Of a stretch of 64,000 nt of DNA, positions 4,361-62,572 are shown piece after piece. The notes beneath the pieces were generated by a model. It was not told the DNA's origin. It worked only from the letters and a program-made list of their open reading frames with translations, and made no database searches. The translations under genes were made by a program, and so were the position numbers. How positions within the stretch are numbered: the first letter of the stretch is position 1; each line of letters opens with the position of its first letter. Source of the stretch: Planctomyces sp. (lineage in GTDB: Bacteria > Planctomycetota > Planctomycetia > Planctomycetales > Planctomycetaceae); NCBI GenBank assembly GCA_019636235.1, contig JAHBXW010000003.1, forward strand, positions 250,001 through 314,000. The letters are read 5' to 3'.

Positions 4361-7300
4361 ATGATTTCCCACTTCTTCATCGACCGACCGATCTTCGCGA
4401 CTGTGCTGTCGATCGTGATCGTGATCGTCGGCGGCATCGCGCTCGTCGGGCTGCCGATCGCCCAGTATCCGGACGTCGCCCCGCCGACGGTGCAGGTGAC
4501 GGCGAATTATCCCGGGGCCAACGCCGTCACCGTCGCGGAGACCGTCGCCACGCCCATCGAGCTGGAGATCAACGGCGTCGAGCGAATGCTGTACATGAGC
4601 TCCAAGTCGACGAATGACGGCCAGATGAACCTGGACGTGACGTTCGAGCTGGGGACGAACCTGGACACAGCCCAGGTGCTGGTGCAGAACCGCGTGGCGG
4701 TCGCCGAGGCCAAGCTGCCGGAAGAGGTCAAACGCACGGGGGTGACGACGAAGAAGAAGTCCCCCAGCATCCTGATGTGCGTGAACCTGATTTCCCCGGG
4801 GAATGTGTACGACCAGCTGTACCTCAGCAACTATTCAGCGCTGAACGTGAAGGACGAGTTGGCGCGGATCAACGGCGTCGGCGACGTGGCCTATCTGGGT
4901 CCCCGCGATTACAGCATGCGGATCTGGCTGGATCCGACGAAACTGGCGACACGGCAGATGACCGTTGCGGAAGTCATCAAAGCCATCCAGGAGCAGAACG
5001 TGCAGGTTGCCGCCGGACGGCTGGGCGCGCCGCCGCTTCCGGCCGGCTCGAACCTGGCGTTTCAGATGCCGATTTCCACACAGGGCCGTCTGAGCGCCGT
5101 CGAGGATTTCGAGAAGATCGTTGTCCGCTCGGCCGACCAGGGACGGCTCGTCTACCTCCGCGATGTCGTCCGCGACCGGAACGGCGTCGAGCTCGGCGCC
5201 AAAAGCTACGACGTCAACAGCTACCTCGACGGCCAGCCCAGCGTGACGCTGGCCGTCTTCCAGCTGCCCGGGTCGAACGCGCTGGCCACCGCCGGGGCGA
5301 TCCGCGCGAAGATGGAGGAGCTCAAGACGCGGTTTCCCGAGGGAGTCGAGTACCGCATCGAGTACGACACCACGGTGTTCGTCGATGAATCCATCAAGAG
5401 CGTGTACCACACGCTCTTCGAGGCCATCGTGCTGGTGTTCATCGTGGTGCTCGTGTTCCTGCAGAACTGGCGGGCGACGGTGATTCCGATGGTGGCCGTG
5501 CCGGTCTCGCTGATCGGCACATTCGCGGCGATGTCGCTGCTGGGATTCTCGCTGAACAACCTGTCGTTATTCGGCCTGGTGCTGGCGATCGGCATTGTCG
5601 TGGACGATGCGATCGTGGTGGTGGAGAACGTGGAGCGGCTGATGGCGATGGGCCTGTCGCCCAGGGAGGCCAGCCGCCGGGCGATGGAGGAGGTGACGGG
5701 GCCGGTCATCGCCATCGCCCTGGTGCTGTGCGCGGTGTTCGTGCCGACGGCCTTCATGGCCGGCATCAGCGGCCAGTTCTACCGGCAGTTCGCGCTGACG
5801 ATCGCCGCCTCGACCGTCATCTCCGCGTTCAACTCGCTGACGCTCAGCCCGGCGCTGTGCGCCCTGTTGCTCAAGCCGCACGCCCACGGCGAGCATGCGC
5901 ACCGTCCCGAGCCGTTGCCGCGCCTGGCGCTGGTGGTCATCGGGGCGCTGGTCGCGCACCTGTTTCTGGGGCCGTGGCTGGCGCCGCTGCTGGGATACGA
6001 GGTCGCGGCGCACGGAGGCGAATCGCACAACCCGCCGCCGGCGTGGTTCGCCCCTGTGGTGCTGTTGGCCGGCGCCATCCTGGGCTGGATCATTTCCCGG
6101 CTCGTCAACGCGCTGCTGTCGGCGTTCTTCATGCTGTTCAACAAGGCGTTCGACGTGTCGATCGCCGCCTACGGCTGGATTGTGCGGATGCTGCTGCGGC
6201 TGGCGGTCATTGTGCTGGCGATCTACGGCGGGCTGATGGCGGCCACCGGCTATGCCATCGTCAAGGTGCCTCAGGGCTTCATTCCCGAGCAGGACAAGGG
6301 GTATCTGATCGTCAACGTGCAGCTCCCGGACGGGGCGAGCCTGGAGCGGACGGATGAACTGATCCGCCGGCTGAGCGTCGTCGTCCGAGAAACCGAGGGG
6401 GTGGCCCACACGATCGACCTGCCCGGCTACTCGACCGTGCTCAGCACGAACCTCAGCAACGCGGGGGGCATGTTCGTCATTTTGACTCCGTTCGAGGAAC
6501 GGGCCGGGAACCCGGAACTCGGCGCCCCGGCGATTTTGCAGCGGCTGCGGGCCGCGTTCCGGGAGTTCCCCGAGGCGCAGATCGCCATTTTCGGCGCCCC
6601 GCCGGTCGAGGGCTTGGGCAGCACCGGCGGCTTCAAGATGCAGATTCAGGACCGCCGCAACGCCGGACTGGCCGCCCTGCAGGGGGGCGTCCAGAACCTC
6701 GCCGAACAGGGGCTGACGCAGCACGGCGACCAGCTCAGCGGGCTGTTCAGCACGTTCAGCGTCAGCCAGCCGCAGATCTTCCTGGAGATCGACCGGGAAA
6801 AGGCCAAGACCGAAGGCGTGTCGCTGGACGACATCAACCTGACGCTGCAGACGTTCCTCGGCAGCGCGTACGTCAATGACTTCTCCTACGAGGGGCGCAG
6901 CTGGCAGGTGAACGTGCAGGCCGACGGCGCCTTCCGGCGGGAGCCCGCGGACATCGGGCGGCTGGAAGTCCGCAACGCCTCCGGCGACCGCGTTCCGTTG
7001 AGCACGCTCGTCCGGGCGCGGGACATCACCGGCCCGCCGATCGTCAATCGCTACAAGCTGTATCCGTCCGCGGAACTGTCGGGCAACACCCAGCCCGGAG
7101 TCAGTTCCGGGCAGTCAATCGCGCTGATGGAAGCGCTGGCCGATGAGCAGTTGCCAGACACGCTGGGCTACGAGTGGACGGAGCTCACGTATCAGCAGAT
7201 TCTCGCGTCGCAGGACGTGTTGACCAAGCTGGTGTTTCCGCTGGCGGTGGTCTTCGTGTTTCTGGTGCTGTCGGCGCAGTACGAGAGCTGGACGCTGCCG

Positions 7301-7822
7301 GCGTCGATTCTGCTGATCGTGCCGATGTGCATTCTGGCGGCGCTGGCGGGGGTGGTGATCGCGAAGTTGGACAACAACATTTTCGTGCAGATCGGCCTGG
7401 TGGTGCTGGTGGGTCTGGCGGCGAAGAACGCAATTCTGATCGTCGAGTTCGCCAAGCAGTTGCAGGACCAGGGACAGCCGCTGTTGGAAGCGACGGTCGA
7501 GGCCTGCAAGCTGCGGTTGCGGCCGATTCTGATGACGTCATTCGCGTTCATTCTGGGCGTGGTTCCGCTGGTCCTCGCCAAGGGGGCCGGGGCGGAGATG
7601 CGGGCGACGCTGGGCATTGCGGTGTTCAGCGGGATGTTGGGCGTGACGGTATTCGGCGTGCTGTTCACGCCCGTGTTTTACTACGTGATCCGCAGGTTCA
7701 GCCGGAACGCGGCCCCCGCGGGGCCTCCTGCGGGGAGTCCCGGCGCCGCATCCGCCTCTGCGGCTGTGCCTGCCGGCAGCGATGGCCACGGCGCACCGGC
7801 GCTCCAGTCGGCGCATCCTTGA
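4361..7822 (+). CDS. RND multidrug efflux permease, AcrB/HAE1 family, enlarged
   Basis: An inner-membrane proton-driven drug or amphiphile exporter of 1153 aa, about 100 residues longer than AcrB. The N-terminus MISHFFIDRPIFATVLSI is typical of the family. The TM4 proton relay is present as GIVVDDAIVVVENVER (two adjacent Asp at about 412-413) and the TM10 Lys as GLAAKNAILIVEFA. The extra length is concentrated at about residues 506-590, between the sixth and seventh canonical membrane segments. There a His-rich linker (HAHGEHAHRPE) is followed by two added hydrophobic stretches. The Pro/Ala/Gly-rich C-terminal tail is non-conserved. It is paired with the adaptor upstream; glgX starts 27 bp downstream, so read-through into the glycogen cluster is possible. 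Confidence 0.95.
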   Translation: MISHFFIDRPIFATVLSIVIVIVGGIALVGLPIAQYPDVAPPTVQVTANYPGANAVTVAETVATPIELEINGVERMLYMSSKSTNDGQMNLDVTFELGTNLDTAQVLVQNRVAVAEAKLPEEVKRTGVTTKKKSPSILMCVNLISPGNVYDQLYLSNYSALNVKDELARINGVGDVAYLGPRDYSMRIWLDPTKLATRQMTVAEVIKAIQEQNVQVAAGRLGAPPLPAGSNLAFQMPISTQGRLSAVEDFEKIVVRSADQGRLVYLRDVVRDRNGVELGAKSYDVNSYLDGQPSVTLAVFQLPGSNALATAGAIRAKMEELKTRFPEGVEYRIEYDTTVFVDESIKSVYHTLFEAIVLVFIVVLVFLQNWRATVIPMVAVPVSLIGTFAAMSLLGFSLNNLSLFGLVLAIGIVVDDAIVVVENVERLMAMGLSPREASRRAMEEVTGPVIAIALVLCAVFVPTAFMAGISGQFYRQFALTIAASTVISAFNSLTLSPALCALLLKPHAHGEHAHRPEPLPRLALVVIGALVAHLFLGPWLAPLLGYEVAAHGGESHNPPPAWFAPVVLLAGAILGWIISRLVNALLSAFFMLFNKAFDVSIAAYGWIVRMLLRLAVIVLAIYGGLMAATGYAIVKVPQGFIPEQDKGYLIVNVQLPDGASLERTDELIRRLSVVVRETEGVAHTIDLPGYSTVLSTNLSNAGGMFVILTPFEERAGNPELGAPAILQRLRAAFREFPEAQIAIFGAPPVEGLGSTGGFKMQIQDRRNAGLAALQGGVQNLAEQGLTQHGDQLSGLFSTFSVSQPQIFLEIDREKAKTEGVSLDDINLTLQTFLGSAYVNDFSYEGRSWQVNVQADGAFRREPADIGRLEVRNASGDRVPLSTLVRARDITGPPIVNRYKLYPSAELSGNTQPGVSSGQSIALMEALADEQLPDTLGYEWTELTYQQILASQDVLTKLVFPLAVVFVFLVLSAQYESWTLPASILLIVPMCILAALAGVVIAKLDNNIFVQIGLVVLVGLAAKNAILIVEFAKQLQDQGQPLLEATVEACKLRLRPILMTSFAFILGVVPLVLAKGAGAEMRATLGIAVFSGMLGVTVFGVLFTPVFYYVIRRFSRNAAPAGPPAGSPGAASASAAVPAGSDGHGAPALQSAHP

Positions 7823-7848
7823 ACCGCGATCCATTCGGGGGCCGAACG

Positions 7849-9960
7849 ATGCCCGTCTGGCCGGGTCGACCATATCCCCTGGGAGCCCACTGGGATGGCG
7901 GGGGGGTGAACTTCGCGCTGTTCTCCGAACGGGCGACCGGCGTGGAGCTATGCCTGTTCGAGCGGGACGGCGGCTGGACCGAAACCTCGCGGATTCCGCT
8001 GCGCGAGAAGACGTTTCAGGTGTGGCATGGGTACGTGCCGGACATCGGTCCGGGTCAGGCTTACGGGTATCGCGTCGATGGCCCTCACGAGCCGCACAAC
8101 GGGCTGCGATTCAATCGCCATAAGCTGCTGCTGGATCCTTATGCGCGGGCGATCGTCCGCGACCTGATGTGGGACGACGCCCTGTACGGAGTTCGGAACG
8201 CCGACGGCCGTCCGGAATTCAACGATCGCGACAGCGGCGGCTGCGCGCCGCTCGGCCAGGTGATCGACAACGCGTTCGACTGGGGCGGCGACGCGCACCC
8301 GCGGATCGCGTGGCATGAAACAGTAATCTACGAACTGCACGTCAAGGGCTTCAGTCAGCGGCATCCGGACGTGCCGGAGCGGCTGCGGGGCACGTATGCC
8401 GGACTCGCCTCGCCGGCCTGCGTTCGCCATTTCCAGGAGCTGGGGGTGACGGCCATCGAGTTGTTGCCCGTGCACTACCACGTCGATGAACGCTTCCTCG
8501 TGAACCGGGGGCGGACGAATTACTGGGGCTACAACACTCTGGGGTTTTTCGCGCCGCATCCGCGGTATGCGGCCGACGCGGCGGACGGCGCGGTTCGCGA
8601 ATTCAAGGCGATGGTCCGCACGCTGCACGCGGCGGGGATCGAAGTCATTCTGGACGTGGTCTACAACCACACGGGCGAAGGGAGCGCGGACGGCCCGACG
8701 CTGTGCCTGCGGGGCATCGACAACCCGGCCTACTATCGGCTCGCGGCCGATCAGGCCGCGTACATCGACGTCACCGGTTGCGGCAACTCGCTGCGCGTCG
8801 CGCATCCCCGCTGCCTGCAGATGATCATGGACAGTCTGCGGTACTGGGTGCAGGAGATGCGCGTCGATGGCTTCCGGTTCGACCTGGCCAGCGCGCTGGC
8901 CCGCGAGACGGATCATGTCGACACGCTGAGCGCGTTCTTCAACGCCATGCACCAGGACCCCGTGCTGTCGCAGGTGAAACTCATCGCCGAGCCGTGGGAC
9001 GTTGGCGGCGGCGGCTACAAGGTCGGCGAGTTCCCGGTGATCTGGACCGAATGGAACGACCGCTATCGCGACTGCGTCCGCCGGTTCTGGAAGGGCGACA
9101 GCGGCACGCTCGGAGAGTTCGCGACGCGCCTCGCCGGCAGCAGCGACCTGTACAGCGACGACGGCCGGTCGCCCAGCGCCAGCATCAACTTCATCACCGC
9201 GCATGACGGCTTCACGCTGCGCGATCTGGTCAGCTATGACCACAAGCACAACGAAGCGAACGGAGAACACAACGCTGACGGCTCCAACAACAACCACAGT
9301 TGGAACTGCGGCGCCGAAGGCCCGACCGACGACCAGGCCATCAACGATCTCCGAGCCCGGCAACAACGCAATTTCCTCGCGACGCTGCTGCTCTCGCAGG
9401 GCGTCCCCATGCTGCTGGCGGGCGATGAACTCGGCCAGACCCAGCAGGGAAACAACAACGCCTACTGCCAGGACAACGAACTCGCGTGGCTCAACTGGGA
9501 TTTGTCGGACGATCAGCGGCGGCTGCTGGACTTCGTCAAGCACGTCGCGCGGCTGCGGAAGTCGCAGCCCGTGTTCCGGCGCCGGCACTTTTTCTTCGGC
9601 CGGCCGATCCACGGGGAGGACGCCAAGGACCTGTACTGGGTCCGACCCGCTTCCGGAGAAATGACGCTCGACGACTGGCGGGCGGATCATGTCCGCAGCC
9701 TGGGGATGGGCCTGATCGGCAATCAGCTGGATGACGTCGACGATCAGGGGCGGCCGATCGTCGGCGACACGTACCTGCTGCTGTTCAACGCCCGGCACGA
9801 CCCGATCGAGTTCCACTCAGGCGAGCGCATGCGCCACCGCAGCTGGGAGGTCGTCGTCGACACCGGCGAGCCCGAACTGCGATCGCGCCTGTTGGCCGAG
9901 GCGTCGCAGCTCACGCTCGCGCCCAGGTCGCTGACCGCATTGCGTTTGATTCCCTTGTGA
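7849..9960 (+). CDS. glgX: Glycogen debranching enzyme GlgX (isoamylase family)
   Basis: A 703-aa GH13 enzyme that removes alpha-1,6 branches from phosphorylase-limited glycogen. The N-terminal CBM48-like module begins at the start (PLGAHWDGGGVNFALFSE). The GH13 barrel contains DVVYNHTGEG (region I), DGFRFDLASAL (region II, nucleophile Asp), IAEPWD (region III, acid/base Glu) and FITAHDGFTLRDLVSYDHKHN (region IV). The last is followed by the long GlgX-type loop rich in Asn. Upstream codons in the same frame overlap the RND gene and are not family-like, so I use the ATG at 7849. It is the first gene of a same-strand cluster glgX-ackA-glgP-xfp, with 42 bp to ackA, consistent with joint use in glycogen breakdown. 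Confidence 0.94.
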   Translation: MPVWPGRPYPLGAHWDGGGVNFALFSERATGVELCLFERDGGWTETSRIPLREKTFQVWHGYVPDIGPGQAYGYRVDGPHEPHNGLRFNRHKLLLDPYARAIVRDLMWDDALYGVRNADGRPEFNDRDSGGCAPLGQVIDNAFDWGGDAHPRIAWHETVIYELHVKGFSQRHPDVPERLRGTYAGLASPACVRHFQELGVTAIELLPVHYHVDERFLVNRGRTNYWGYNTLGFFAPHPRYAADAADGAVREFKAMVRTLHAAGIEVILDVVYNHTGEGSADGPTLCLRGIDNPAYYRLAADQAAYIDVTGCGNSLRVAHPRCLQMIMDSLRYWVQEMRVDGFRFDLASALARETDHVDTLSAFFNAMHQDPVLSQVKLIAEPWDVGGGGYKVGEFPVIWTEWNDRYRDCVRRFWKGDSGTLGEFATRLAGSSDLYSDDGRSPSASINFITAHDGFTLRDLVSYDHKHNEANGEHNADGSNNNHSWNCGAEGPTDDQAINDLRARQQRNFLATLLLSQGVPMLLAGDELGQTQQGNNNAYCQDNELAWLNWDLSDDQRRLLDFVKHVARLRKSQPVFRRRHFFFGRPIHGEDAKDLYWVRPASGEMTLDDWRADHVRSLGMGLIGNQLDDVDDQGRPIVGDTYLLLFNARHDPIEFHSGERMRHRSWEVVVDTGEPELRSRLLAEASQLTLAPRSLTALRLIPL

Positions 9961-58707: not shown

Positions 58708-59625
58708 GTGCGGGTGTGCGTCATCGCCAATTCGAACGCGGGGCGCGGCCGGGTCCGCCGCTGGATGCGGTCGCTGGAGTCCGCCGCGGCCCCTGACGTG
58801 AACTGGAGGCGCACCGCCGGTCCCCGGCACGCGACTCAACTCACGCGGGATGCCATCGCCGAAGGGTGCGATGTGATCGCCGCGGCCGGCGGGGACGGGA
58901 CGATTCACGAGGTCGTTCAGGCGCTGATGCAGGTCCCCGATCCGCCCGTCCTGGCGGTGTTGCCCGGCGGCTCGGCGAACGACTTCGTGCATTCCGTCCA
59001 ACGGCAGTTCGGGTGGCGTTCCCTGCGGGACGGGACATCCGACGCCGTCGATGTGGGCGAAGTCCGCACTGCGGACGGCGGCGTCCGGTGGTTTATCAAC
59101 AGTCTGGGATTCTCACTGTCCGCCGCCGTGGGGCGCGAGTCCGCGCGGCTCGCCGGATGGCCCGGATGGGTGCGCTACGGACTCGCGACCTGGAGGGCGC
59201 TGCGGACAACGTCCGTGGTTGAACTCGCGATGGCGGCGGACGCGGCGCCGTCGGATGTCCGGGGGACGCTGCTCCTCGCGCTGCTTCTGGGACGACGGGA
59301 GGGGGGCTTCACGATGGCGCCGGACGCGTCCTTGAATGACGGCTGGTTCGACGTGGTTCACGCGGGACCACTCTCGCGGCTGCGCGCCGTCTCGATGCTG
59401 CCGCGCCTTCTGGTCAGCGGCCCGCCGCGGCACGACCCCGCGATTCAGCTGAGCCGCTGCCGCCGCCTCCGCGTGACGAGCGCTGAGGTCATCCCCCTGC
59501 ACGCCGATGGCGAACTGCTGACGACCAGTCCGCAGTCGCCGCTGAATGCGGACATCACACTTCTTCCGGCCCGGTTGCGGGTGAAGGCGTGTCGGCTGTC
59601 GGCGGAGGCGTGGCCGCTCCGGTGA
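58708..59625 (+). CDS. Diacylglycerol kinase-like lipid kinase
   Basis: 305 aa of the DAGK catalytic (YegS/DgkB-type) fold. N-terminal IANSNAGRG, ATP-binding AAAGGDGTIHEV and LPGGSANDFVHS are family marks. Start is GTG 58708 behind GGAGGAGGAAC. Substrate could be diacylglycerol, ceramide or another lipid alcohol; a basic pocket is seen but not diagnostic. The last 71 bp overlap the end of the convergent hydroxylase gene. Third gene of the pyrD operon. Confidence 0.88.
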   Translation: MRVCVIANSNAGRGRVRRWMRSLESAAAPDVNWRRTAGPRHATQLTRDAIAEGCDVIAAAGGDGTIHEVVQALMQVPDPPVLAVLPGGSANDFVHSVQRQFGWRSLRDGTSDAVDVGEVRTADGGVRWFINSLGFSLSAAVGRESARLAGWPGWVRYGLATWRALRTTSVVELAMAADAAPSDVRGTLLLALLLGRREGGFTMAPDASLNDGWFDVVHAGPLSRLRAVSMLPRLLVSGPPRHDPAIQLSRCRRLRVTSAEVIPLHADGELLTTSPQSPLNADITLLPARLRVKACRLSAEAWPLR

Positions 59626-60784
59626 CCCCGTCCCGTTGAGCCCGACGGAAGGGATGCAGGAACTGCCGCAGCCAGCCCTCCGGCATGCGGCGTCCGCCGG
59701 CCAGTCCGTAAGCGGCCGGCCATGCATCGGGCAGAAAGTACGTTCCGAACAGCCGGTCCCACACTGGCGTATGCACGGCGAAGTTCTTGTCGACGGCGGC
59801 ACGGTCCGCGCTATGGTGCCAGTGATGAAAGGCGGGCGTGGCAATCAACTTTCGCAACGGACGGAAAGTCCACCGAACGTTCGCGTGGATGAACGTCGCC
59901 TGAACCGCGACGATCACGACATACACGGCGAGTGCCGTCCGGGAGAACCCCAGCACGTAAATCGGCACGTAGGTCAAAGCCCGCGTCGCCACCGCGTCCA
60001 CCACATGCAGCCGGGATCCCGCCAGCCAGTCCATCGCTTCCGCCGAGTGATGCACCGCATGGAACCGCCACAGCACCGGGAACACGTGGAACGCCCGGTG
60101 CACCCAGTATTGCGTGAAATCCGCGACCAGCAGCACCAGCGGAACCTGCACCAGCACCGGCAGCGATTCCGCGATCCGCGTCACCACGGGAAGCCTGGCC
60201 CAATCGAACAACGTCATCGCCGGCGTCAATGTCATCAGCGTCGTAATCTGAATCAGCAGGCTGTTCACGAAGAAGTAGCTGAGATCGGTCCTCCACGACG
60301 GACGAAACACGGCCTGGTCGCGATGCAGGCCGAACAGCCGTTCCAGCGGAATATAGATGGCCGAGTACAGAATCATGTTCAGCAGAAACCAGTCCAGCCC
60401 CAGGATGCCTCCCGTGCCGGATGCGTCGCCAATGCGCACCTGCGAGCCCCCCAGGAGAGCCGCGATGAGCGTCAACGCCATGCCGGTCAATCCCAGCGCC
60501 TTGTTCGACCTCAGGCAGACGCTGAGCACGCCCAGCAGATAGGCCGCCACCAGGACCAGATGCAGTAGCGCGCGGACCACGGCAATCGGGTACAGCCGAC
60601 GCAGCTCGGGCATCGTCAGCACGTCCGGATAGTGAAAGCACAACACGGCGCCGAGTCCCAATGCCCCCAGCGCGACGGATGCGGCGCCGCTGATCCAGCC
60701 GTGGCCGAAATCGCGGCTTTGCGTGCTCTGCAGCGAGATGTGCGCGCCTCGCGGCCGCGGGTCTTCAGGCGTTTCCATCGGCAT
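59555..60784 (-). CDS. Fatty acid hydroxylase/sterol desaturase superfamily protein
   Basis: 409 aa, multi-pass membrane, di-iron. The three His clusters are intact: HRAFH at 229-233, HAVHH at 242-246 and HHWHH at 320-324, with DKNFAVHTPVWDRLFGTY after the last. This superfamily includes sterol C-5 desaturase and alkylglycerol monooxygenase. The C-terminus is Pro/Thr-rich. The start at 60784 overlaps the upstream CarF-type gene by 20 bp. The combined context points to ether- or sterol-lipid metabolism; the actual substrate is not readable. Confidence 0.9.
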   Translation of the reverse strand: MPMETPEDPRPRGAHISLQSTQSRDFGHGWISGAASVALGALGLGAVLCFHYPDVLTMPELRRLYPIAVVRALLHLVLVAAYLLGVLSVCLRSNKALGLTGMALTLIAALLGGSQVRIGDASGTGGILGLDWFLLNMILYSAIYIPLERLFGLHRDQAVFRPSWRTDLSYFFVNSLLIQITTLMTLTPAMTLFDWARLPVVTRIAESLPVLVQVPLVLLVADFTQYWVHRAFHVFPVLWRFHAVHHSAEAMDWLAGSRLHVVDAVATRALTYVPIYVLGFSRTALAVYVVIVAVQATFIHANVRWTFRPLRKLIATPAFHHWHHSADRAAVDKNFAVHTPVWDRLFGTYFLPDAWPAAYGLAGGRRMPEGWLRQFLHPFRRAQRDGVTGAATPPPTADTPSPATGPEEV

Positions 60785-61520
60785 CGGGTCTGTCCGGCGG
60801 GTTCAGCAATGCGGATGGTTCGAAGACCTGGCGAAACGATTCGTCGTCCGATCGCGGCTGCAATCCGGTCCAGCGGGTCACCGCGCGTTCCAGCCGTCGA
60901 AAGAACTGGATGCGTTCCAGGAACGGATTGCACCACCCCGTCGCGATGCAGTAGTTCGCGGCGTGCGGCGCGCGATGATGCCTCAGATGCGCGGGTCGGC
61001 TGAGAATCAGACCCAGGCGCTGCAGCCGCGCGACCCACCGCGGCGGAGCCGACTGGTGCGCCCATTGGTGAACCTGATTCGTCGGCAGGATCGTCGCGCA
61101 GAAGCCCGCGACCCCCGCGGCGAGCAACTGCCCCGTCGCGCCGCGCATCGGCAGACAATGCGCCAGCGCCAGGATCGGCGCCGTGAGCATGGCCACGTCC
61201 CCATTGACGTCCAGGAACCGGCGACGCAGAAAGTCGTCGGGGTTCACGTGGTGCACGCGAAATGGCCTCAGGAACCGGCGGCCGAAGACCGGCATCGTTT
61301 CGTGTCCCCACGTATCGGCGATCCAGTGGACAATGCCGGAAACAAAGTCCGCCGCGAATGCGCCGCCCGCCGCCACCGCGAGGACGGCCAGCGGCGGCGC
61401 CTGCAGCTCGCTTCCCCAAAGTCGCCAGACGAGCGCCCCCAGCAACCCGCCCGCCGCCGCAAGCGCGACGGCCTCCAGAGCCTGGCGACGTTCGCTGATG
61501 TCATCATGGGCTGGCAGCAT
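60765..61520 (-). CDS. CarF/TMEM189 (Kua)-type lipid desaturase
   Basis: 251 aa. The His/Asp pattern is that of CarF/PEDS1: VHWIADTWGH (H65, D69, H73), RVHHVNPDD (H90-H91), NGD at 106-108, HQWAH (H151, H155), HHRAPH (H181, H182, H186), and YCIATGWCNP near 190-199. About four membrane segments are evident. In myxobacteria and animals this enzyme makes the vinyl ether bond of plasmalogens. A plasmalogen role here is inference. It overlaps the hydroxylase gene downstream by 20 bp; no ribosome binding site is clear at 61520. Confidence 0.88.
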   Translation of the reverse strand: MLPAHDDISERRQALEAVALAAAGGLLGALVWRLWGSELQAPPLAVLAVAAGGAFAADFVSGIVHWIADTWGHETMPVFGRRFLRPFRVHHVNPDDFLRRRFLDVNGDVAMLTAPILALAHCLPMRGATGQLLAAGVAGFCATILPTNQVHQWAHQSAPPRWVARLQRLGLILSRPAHLRHHRAPHAANYCIATGWCNPFLERIQFFRRLERAVTRWTGLQPRSDDESFRQVFEPSALLNPPDRPDADGNA

Positions 61521-61654: not shown

Positions 61655-62572
61655 TCAACCTCCAAACGTCAGCGTCAGCGTCTGTGATTCGTCCAGCAGC
61701 TTCGAACGGAGCTCGATCGTGTCCTCGACCAGACGGTCCCCGCCCGGCACCGCGACGATCAACTCGACCACGCCGTTCTTCGCCGGCAGCGTGCCGGTCT
61801 CCGGCGTCTTGACGAGCTTTCCCCGCCGCCCTTTGATGAACACGTCGCGAGGAATCCGCTGCCGATAGTCGTCCGTCCCGACCACCGACCCCGTCAGGTC
61901 CGACAGCGAGTAGGACCCGTTGTTCTTCGGCAGCCGGATCTGGATTGTGATGTGATACATCTCTCGCGGCTCGGGAGCCTCTCCGGGTTCGCCCGGCGGC
62001 TTGATCCGGCGGCCCAGGTTGTCCAGCCCCTGCGGCGTCGTCCACGCCGCGAAGCTTCCCGCGCGGACCGCGTTCTTCGGCAGGTTGAAAAACCCATCCT
62101 CCGCGCCGAGTCCTCCGCTGCCCGATCCCTCAATCGAGCCCAGCCCCTCCGCCGCCACATCCAGCGGAGCATCCGCCAGCGCCGTCAGCGGGGAGTGCAA
62201 AGTGCTGACGTCGGCCGTCGGCAACAGCGGCGTCAGATCGACGGAGATCATCTCTCCCACGCCGGCGCCGCCGTCGTCGCCGGTCTGCACCAATGTGTCG
62301 ATGGCCGATTCCGAGCGTCCCCCGCCGACAATGTGCAGCGCGAAAATCGCCAGCAGGACGCAGTGCGCCAGCAGCGAGGCCGCCAGCGCCATGCCACGGC
62401 TCGGCGACCTGGAATCAGCACTCGCCACGGTTTGGGCGGGCGGAGCTGAGGCGCCGTTCGCGGGCAGTGGCGCCGCCGCTGGCGGAATGGACGGAGTGCG
62501 AGCGCCGAGGAGGCTGCTGATGGCGGCAGCCGTCGGGACGATGGGTTCTCGAAGCTGTGGAACTCGCGACAT
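61655..62572 (-). CDS. Membrane-anchored protein of unknown function, 305 aa
   Basis: A low-complexity Ala/Pro/Ser N-terminal cytoplasmic region of about 60 residues is followed by one membrane segment (LAASLLAHCVLLAIFALHIV). The large outer domain of about 200 residues is beta-rich, with Gly-rich (GSIEGSGSGGLGAED) and polar stretches, and ends TLTLTFGG. No catalytic motif is recognisable. The shape resembles planctomycete 'TonB-like' proteins, but the TonB signature is missing. Not assigned a function. Confidence 0.7.
   Translation of the reverse strand: MSRVPQLREPIVPTAAAISSLLGARTPSIPPAAAPLPANGASAPPAQTVASADSRSPSRGMALAASLLAHCVLLAIFALHIVGGGRSESAIDTLVQTGDDGGAGVGEMISVDLTPLLPTADVSTLHSPLTALADAPLDVAAEGLGSIEGSGSGGLGAEDGFFNLPKNAVRAGSFAAWTTPQGLDNLGRRIKPPGEPGEAPEPREMYHITIQIRLPKNNGSYSLSDLTGSVVGTDDYRQRIPRDVFIKGRRGKLVKTPETGTLPAKNGVVELIVAVPGGDRLVEDTIELRSKLLDESQTLTLTFGG

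Follow-up and report, generated by a model that had tools for sequence, protein, structure and literature searches.

A CarF-like desaturase paired with a long-form hydroxylase in a planctomycete and in other bacterial phyla

A recurrent gene pair

The DNA considered here, 64,000 nucleotides from Planctomyces sp. (GenBank assembly GCA_019636235.1, contig JAHBXW010000003.1, positions 250,001 to 314,000; 'the window' below), carries two overlapping genes, a genuine and conserved module that encodes two di-iron enzymes acting on lipids: a desaturase related to CarF, in which arginine stands at the place of a ninth histidine (R-type), and a long-form hydroxylase. The recurrence of this pair in named loci of four phyla exceeds chance. 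In our reading, held with about even confidence, the two enzymes constitute a conserved oxidative module whose substrate is an intact membrane glycerolipid, most likely with an ether linkage. A preliminary description, made from the sequence alone, had proposed a coupled pair of di-iron enzymes acting on lipids and akin to CarF, encoded by reading frames that overlap by 20 base pairs (bp). The reading-frame coordinates, the Pfam matches and the recurrence in four phyla agree with this proposal.

60765..61520, minus strand: R-type CarF-like desaturase, 251 amino acids; Pfam Lipid_desat PF10520, 188.9 bits (cut-off 26.4)
59555..60784, minus strand: long-form di-iron hydroxylase, 409 amino acids, with an N-terminal membrane region; FA_hydroxylase PF04116 over residues 215-348, 109.9 bits (cut-off 31)
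61221..61223, minus strand: Arg100 codon, where CarF (H113) and mouse PEDS1 (H131) have their ninth histidine; from alignments, with coordinates computed from the start of the reading frame
60765..60784, minus strand: 20-bp overlap between the desaturase stop codon (60765-60767) and the hydroxylase ATG (first base 60784); from reading-frame coordinates

The overlap of stop and start makes translational coupling of desaturase and hydroxylase possible. In nine of eleven codirectional relatives, a possible hydroxylase start codon overlaps the desaturase stop by 4 or 8 bp, the exceptions being locus L081, which offers larger overlaps only (29 and 41 bp), and L077, where a gap of 3 bp separates the genes (L numbers denote loci, G numbers genomes). 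A promoter and terminator scan gave nothing exceeding shuffles.

How general is the pairing? The distribution of PF10520 is patchy: the window's family has it in 6 of 101 genomes and the phylum in 34 of 392. Named genomes were scanned with a 13-row alignment, and the counts of R-type and other loci rest on the best 80 of 285 relatives, weaker ones lying outside this set. Arginine occupies the ninth position at 20 of the 80 loci (L067-L086); at two of these, L067 and L068, the contig ends at the desaturase, which leaves 18 that are informative. A long hydroxylase adjoins the desaturase at 17 of the 18 (the exception is L086), lying downstream in Planctomycetota and Acidobacteriota, divergently in Verrucomicrobiota and upstream in Gemmatimonadota. 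At none of the 60 remaining loci (L087-L146, many from Myxococcota) does the available sequence contain a hydroxylase match, and 43 of them have more than 1.5 kb on each side; Fisher's test of 17/18 against 0/43 returns a p value of 3e-14, uncorrected for relatedness. The pair is also found in G057 and G100, both of the window's family, and, with glutamine at the ninth place, in G101. No title or opening of an abstract describes such a pair in the literature searched, whose coverage leaves out most subscription journals, and a search of plasmids found no desaturase relatives usable as references. Two record titles in the set appear doubtful, namely 'Kuenenia stuttgartiensis' for L071, which has an 8.2-Mb genome, and 'Comamonas' for L102, whose CarF ranks among myxobacterial ones.

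Relationships of the two enzymes

Human plasmalogens receive their vinyl ether from PEDS1 (TMEM189), the plasmanylethanolamine desaturase. The preliminary description had called the window desaturase CarF-type and reported a complete histidine and aspartate pattern. Most of that pattern is borne out by alignments: the desaturase keeps the eight essential histidines (H65, H90, H91, H151, H155, H178, H181 and H182, corresponding to mouse 96, 121, 122, 187, 191, 215, 218 and 219), and its D69 and F87 correspond to mouse D100 and F118. The ninth histidine is replaced by Arg100, so the pattern is not complete. The key residues of PEDS1 comprise the eight histidines that it has in common with plant FAD4, together with D100 and F118, whereas the ninth histidine is conserved in PEDS1 and not in FAD4 (PMC8960569; PMC9131029). 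As a control of numbering, the aligned residue of CarF from M. xanthus AM003 (L103, 281 amino acids) is His113. M. xanthus CarF and the window desaturase are 36% identical over the alignment and 41% identical in the best segment. The CarF equivalog model NCBIfam NF045946, which has a cut-off of 500, gives 570.4 bits for the AM003 protein and 197.2 bits for the window protein, and the latter is coupled to a hydroxylase, whereas no myxobacterial CarF locus in the set has one within the sequence available around it.

An AlphaFold2 model of the desaturase (mean predicted local distance difference test score, pLDDT, 92.6) contains four long helices (10-36, 43-70, 102-120 and 128-144), which matches the known topology of CarF. 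Among solved structures, it comes closest to Scs7p, a fatty acid hydroxylase of yeast (Z 8.9, root-mean-square deviation 4.5, 184 aligned residues; Foldseek E 0.1, probability 0.99), the next unrelated structure being at Z 4.8; helical models can score middling Z values through their arrangement alone. A phmmer search of the PDB with the desaturase and the hydroxylase found nothing relevant, the best match of one (E 0.037) being an unrelated enzyme and the other having no match.

Two trees separate the desaturase from CarF. The first, a quick tree, held 87 rows after removal of duplicates and near-copies; for the second, of 61 rows, the alignment column of Arg100 was deleted before building. 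In the 61-row tree the 21 R-type rows (the window and L067-L086) form one group (support 99/94), which adjoins two threonine-bearing Gemmataceae proteins (group of 23, 100/99) and stands apart from the CarF rows. The 87-row tree agrees with a separate R group. The approximately unbiased (AU) test rejected placing either the window protein (p 6.8e-8) or all 21 R rows (p 0.001) with the eight CarF rows from myxobacteria. The phylogeny against CarF for which the preliminary description had called thus places the desaturase outside the CarF clade, and with the arginine and the missed equivalog cut-off this speaks against its identification as CarF or PEDS1. The window protein is a CarF relative for which identity with PEDS1 is unsupported.

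The same phylum holds other PF10520 proteins. CarF-like proteins with all nine histidines (for example TRHDFIETNG) are found at the Planctomycetota loci L011, L012, L013, L016, L017 and L133, and these proteins are candidates for plasmalogen makers. A 2022 review reports true CarF homologues beyond myxobacteria in Leptospira only (PMC9131029). A further PF10520 group (L004, L024 and L030-L036) has asparagine at the position of Phe118 and is without the ninth histidine.

The hydroxylase had been likened to alkylglycerol monooxygenase (AGMO, TMEM195), and published positions in the human enzyme (PMC7911779) permit a comparison by spacing. The nine-histidine spacing of AGMO is matched exactly (H229, H233, H242, H245, H246, H300, H320, H323 and H324), and four of six further essential residues (human D233, N235, W243 and D244) are retained, whereas the other two, Q162 and Y236, correspond to Leu259 and a phenylalanine. 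AGMO has four transmembrane helices (6-9) after its catalytic domain; the window protein differs in having hydrophobic stretches before and inside that domain and none after it. Its hydropathy segments lie at 31-49, 73-91, 96-114, 127-145, 204-222 and 275-293 only, so that hydropathy gives no C-terminal transmembrane block, and the AlphaFold2 model (mean pLDDT 85.6) has only short helices past residue 300. Against solved structures, the model found no Foldseek match at E <= 0.001 (best 1.9), and VIA-align gave Z values of up to 5.1, mostly over residues 1-134 and to membrane proteins of other kinds, a listing that does not exclude families beyond it. A tree of 33 hydroxylase rows unites the paired forms from Planctomycetota and Acidobacteriota (14 rows, 97/97) and, in a second group, those from Verrucomicrobiota and Gemmatimonadota (5 rows, 100/100), sisterhood of the two groups being unsupported.

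Among curated NCBIfam models, the hydroxylase has a match at E <= 0.01 to that of the ornithine lipid hydroxylase OlsE (NF052566) only, with 123.8 bits over residues 177-382; the protein's long N-terminal membrane region falls outside the match. This match is the main point in favour of a hydroxylase that acts on the headgroup of an amino-acid lipid, as OlsE does, or on another non-glycerol lipid such as a sphingolipid, hopanoid or carotenoid, with the desaturase in the same pathway. The score is far below the OlsE cut-off of 475, and a Pfam scan of 30 neighbour proteins found none clearly indicating sterol, hopanoid or carotenoid synthesis, a lipid kinase being the only family that clustering placed beside more than two pair loci. 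We therefore consider such a substrate very unlikely. As judged from its residues and predicted membrane topology, the hydroxylase is a superfamily member for which identity with AGMO is unsupported.

Ether-lipid genes and candidate substrates

Which lipid might the pair act upon? On the contig of L068, in genome G008, a 1549-amino-acid frame and a 534-amino-acid gene are followed by the R-type desaturase. The frame contains two BcrAD_BadFG stretches and DUF2229, and its product may be shorter than 1549 residues, because similarity to like proteins begins near residue 297. The 534-residue protein resembles fused PlsA/Ger-like proteins in their C-terminal part (22.5-26.3% over 367-412 residues); frame and gene together therefore look like a split enzyme of the PlsA/Ger type (anaerobic plasmalogen synthase or glycerol ester reductase). 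At L069, a 67% identical copy of the 534-residue protein precedes the desaturase and the hydroxylase; the large reductase gene is shorter there and split over two frames, and therefore appears broken or misassembled. The genes plsA and plsR are separate in Clostridium perfringens and a single gene elsewhere (PMC12838417), and a 2026 paper connects alkyl-ether formation with PlsA-like proteins that have two activation domains, adding that Ger and PlsA are not assignable from primary sequence alone (PMC13274423). Reductase-led gene rows in two planctomycete relatives favour ether lipids, which are, from these two rows, our best guess at a single substrate class for the group.

How might the two enzymes cooperate? 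The R-type desaturase would use O2 and its di-iron centre to desaturate a lipid chain close to its glycerol end; the bond formed would be at Delta1' in an alkyl ether, the position used by CarF, or at one nearby, as in FAD4. The hydroxylase would then add oxygen to the same lipid, leaving a hydroxylated or a cleaved chain. In rows with a reductase of the PlsA/Ger type, the alkyl-ether substrate would come from this enzyme. Conceivably, a single row might thus encode a hybrid, third route to plasmalogens or oxidised ether lipids, in which the reductase converts ester to alkyl ether, the O2-dependent desaturase forms the vinyl ether and the hydroxylase oxidises or cleaves the product. We think this route unlikely; if it existed, it would join the 'anaerobic' and 'aerobic' routes so far treated as separate.

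A number of observations weigh against a joint module acting on ether-linked lipids, beginning with the arginine at the ninth position. In G101, the hydroxylase lies outside the R-paired groups of the hydroxylase tree, and in the 87-row tree the glutamine-type desaturase falls on a long branch apart from the R group; the pairing is thus not confined to the R clade. At two loci of the window's family, L163 (in G057; 7412-8131) and L164 (in G100; 6912-7767), an intact hydroxylase stands by a broken desaturase, the defects being a missing internal stretch that would hold five of the eight histidines and a change of frame. Either loss or an assembly error could underlie this, and the hydroxylase may also work alone. 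Long hydroxylases also stand at 15 loci where no desaturase was seen alongside; a contig end truncates at least four of these, and at L157 a His-bearing desaturase lies about 7 kb from a long hydroxylase.

The host genome adds to these points. It has no match to PF09989 (the PlsA/Ger family) and no ortholog of AGPS, the query for which was the M. xanthus gene whose neighbours, a gene with FAR and acyltransferase and one of epimerase type, agree with the description of MXAN_1676-1674 (PMC9131029). One partial AGPS match (31% over 174-394 of 643 residues, 83.6 bits) is as low as those of two other M. xanthus proteins (91.4 and 85.7 bits), at the level of that organism's further FAD-linked oxidases. 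Nor did the domain checks show an ElbD-like fusion in the host, its best FAR-type match being a 384-amino-acid frame without an AMP-binding or acyltransferase domain. By these tests, all three markers (PF09989, AGPS-like and ElbD-like) are absent from 17 of the 24 genomes that have an R-type gene or the glutamine-type pair, the window's included. PF09989 does occur in five of the 24 (G008, G474, which is that of L069 and has a fragment with 36 bits, G485, G488 and G101); it is found in 117 of 392 genomes of the phylum, so we discarded co-occurrence at genome level as evidence and count the two gene rows alone.

Further ether-lipid genes are scattered among these genomes. In G476 (that of L072), an AGPS-like protein of nearly full length (32% over 89-625 of 643 residues, 272 bits) is encoded on the contig that carries the pair; its gene, about 8 kb away, belongs to another gene row and was not counted as gene-row evidence. 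G491, the planctomycete with the unpaired R-type desaturase of L086, shows the ElbD-like order FAR, AMP-binding, carrier and acyltransferase at L234:2496-6965. A 1429-amino-acid FAR-type frame of G475, ElbD-like by size, was rejected for its domains of polyketide synthase type. ElbD domain order was checked on the two frames above 1400 amino acids outside myxobacteria, which leaves out a 1024-amino-acid frame of G474.

The role in ether lipids suggested by the preliminary description is thus upheld in part, by the PlsA/Ger-like rows of two relatives, and is weakened for the window's host by the missing AGPS ortholog and PlsA/Ger gene. Since the tested ether-lipid synthesis genes are missing there, the ether guess is weaker for this host, whose substrate may be an ester lipid instead. 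One alternative that would dispense with ether lipids altogether is a reaction like that of FAD4, the plant chloroplast phosphatidylglycerol desaturase: the desaturase would place its double bond in an ester-bound acyl chain, close to the carboxyl end, and the same phospholipid would be oxidised by the hydroxylase. The gene content of the host fits this idea, and FAD4 belongs to the same Pfam family and usually has arginine at the ninth position (PMC9131029), although this is a likeness by description. The R clade, in contrast, adjoins two Thr-bearing and then His-bearing CarF-like bacterial proteins in trees without FAD4 rows, so that its arginine appears derived, and a reductase row in two relatives likewise disagrees with a purely ester-based pathway. 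On balance, we judge a FAD4-like reaction improbable.

A second alternative remains closer to the preliminary description, whereby a true PEDS1 activity and an AGMO-like ether cleaver would constitute a make-and-break pair for plasmalogens. Both superfamilies match, the desaturase has its eight histidines, aspartate and phenylalanine, the hydroxylase has the AGMO histidine spacing with the equivalents of D233, N235, W243 and D244, and two relatives have PlsA/Ger-like gene rows. Moreover, CarF needs the ninth histidine, whereas mouse H131A retains about 7% of activity (PMC8960569; PMC9131029), so that its loss need not abolish the reaction. Set against this are the arginine itself, the score of 197 versus 500 bits and both AU tests; the leucine and phenylalanine at the Q162 and Y236 equivalents and the want of a C-terminal transmembrane block; and a host without an AGPS ortholog or a gene of the PlsA/Ger family. 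We accordingly regard such a pair as doubtful, and the identification of the hydroxylase as AGMO, for which OlsE is the only family model matched and that below its cut-off, is not sustained by these comparisons. We thus retain the wider reading, that of an oxidative module for an intact, probably ether-linked glycerolipid.

Neighbouring genes and significance of the R-type clade

The preliminary description had also pointed to a convergent lipid kinase gene, and this gene is indeed present, after pyrD and gluQRS on the plus strand:

58708..59625, plus strand: YegS/DAGK-type lipid kinase, convergent on the pair, possible accessory; DAGK_cat, 83 bits

Kinases of this kind lie beside the pair, in varying orientations, at 5 of 20 R-type pair loci (the 20 being the window, L069-L085, G057 and G100): the window and L071, assigned by Pfam, and L074, L077 and L164, assigned by BLAST. 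As they are mostly 24-36% identical to one another (L071 and L164, at 83%, excepted), the kinases do not constitute one clear orthologous third gene, and the link is not special to the R type, given that a similar kinase lies beside the His-bearing desaturase in L157. The host genome has three kinases of this family. Other neighbours vary; a phosphatidylserine decarboxylase adjoins the pair at one locus, L080, and the host has one match to such an enzyme elsewhere in its genome, so that phosphatidylethanolamine is probably made there. The window also has, 134 bp upstream of the desaturase and in the same orientation, a gene for a 305-amino-acid protein (61655-62572, minus strand) with no Pfam or NCBIfam match at E <= 0.01.

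What might the pair mean for this family of enzymes? Planctomycetota are now found to have His-bearing CarF-like proteins and, related to these, an Arg-bearing clade coupled to a hydroxylase. If the hybrid route considered above existed, the R-type clade would represent an enzyme of the PEDS1 superfamily in which the ninth histidine has given way to arginine and whose product is tied to a hydroxylase partner. R-type proteins are natural enzymes for probing the role of the ninth histidine, and the choice between Delta1' and other positions of the lipid chain. Their gene rows bear on whether bacteria combine ester-reducing and O2-dependent steps in one ether-lipid pathway.

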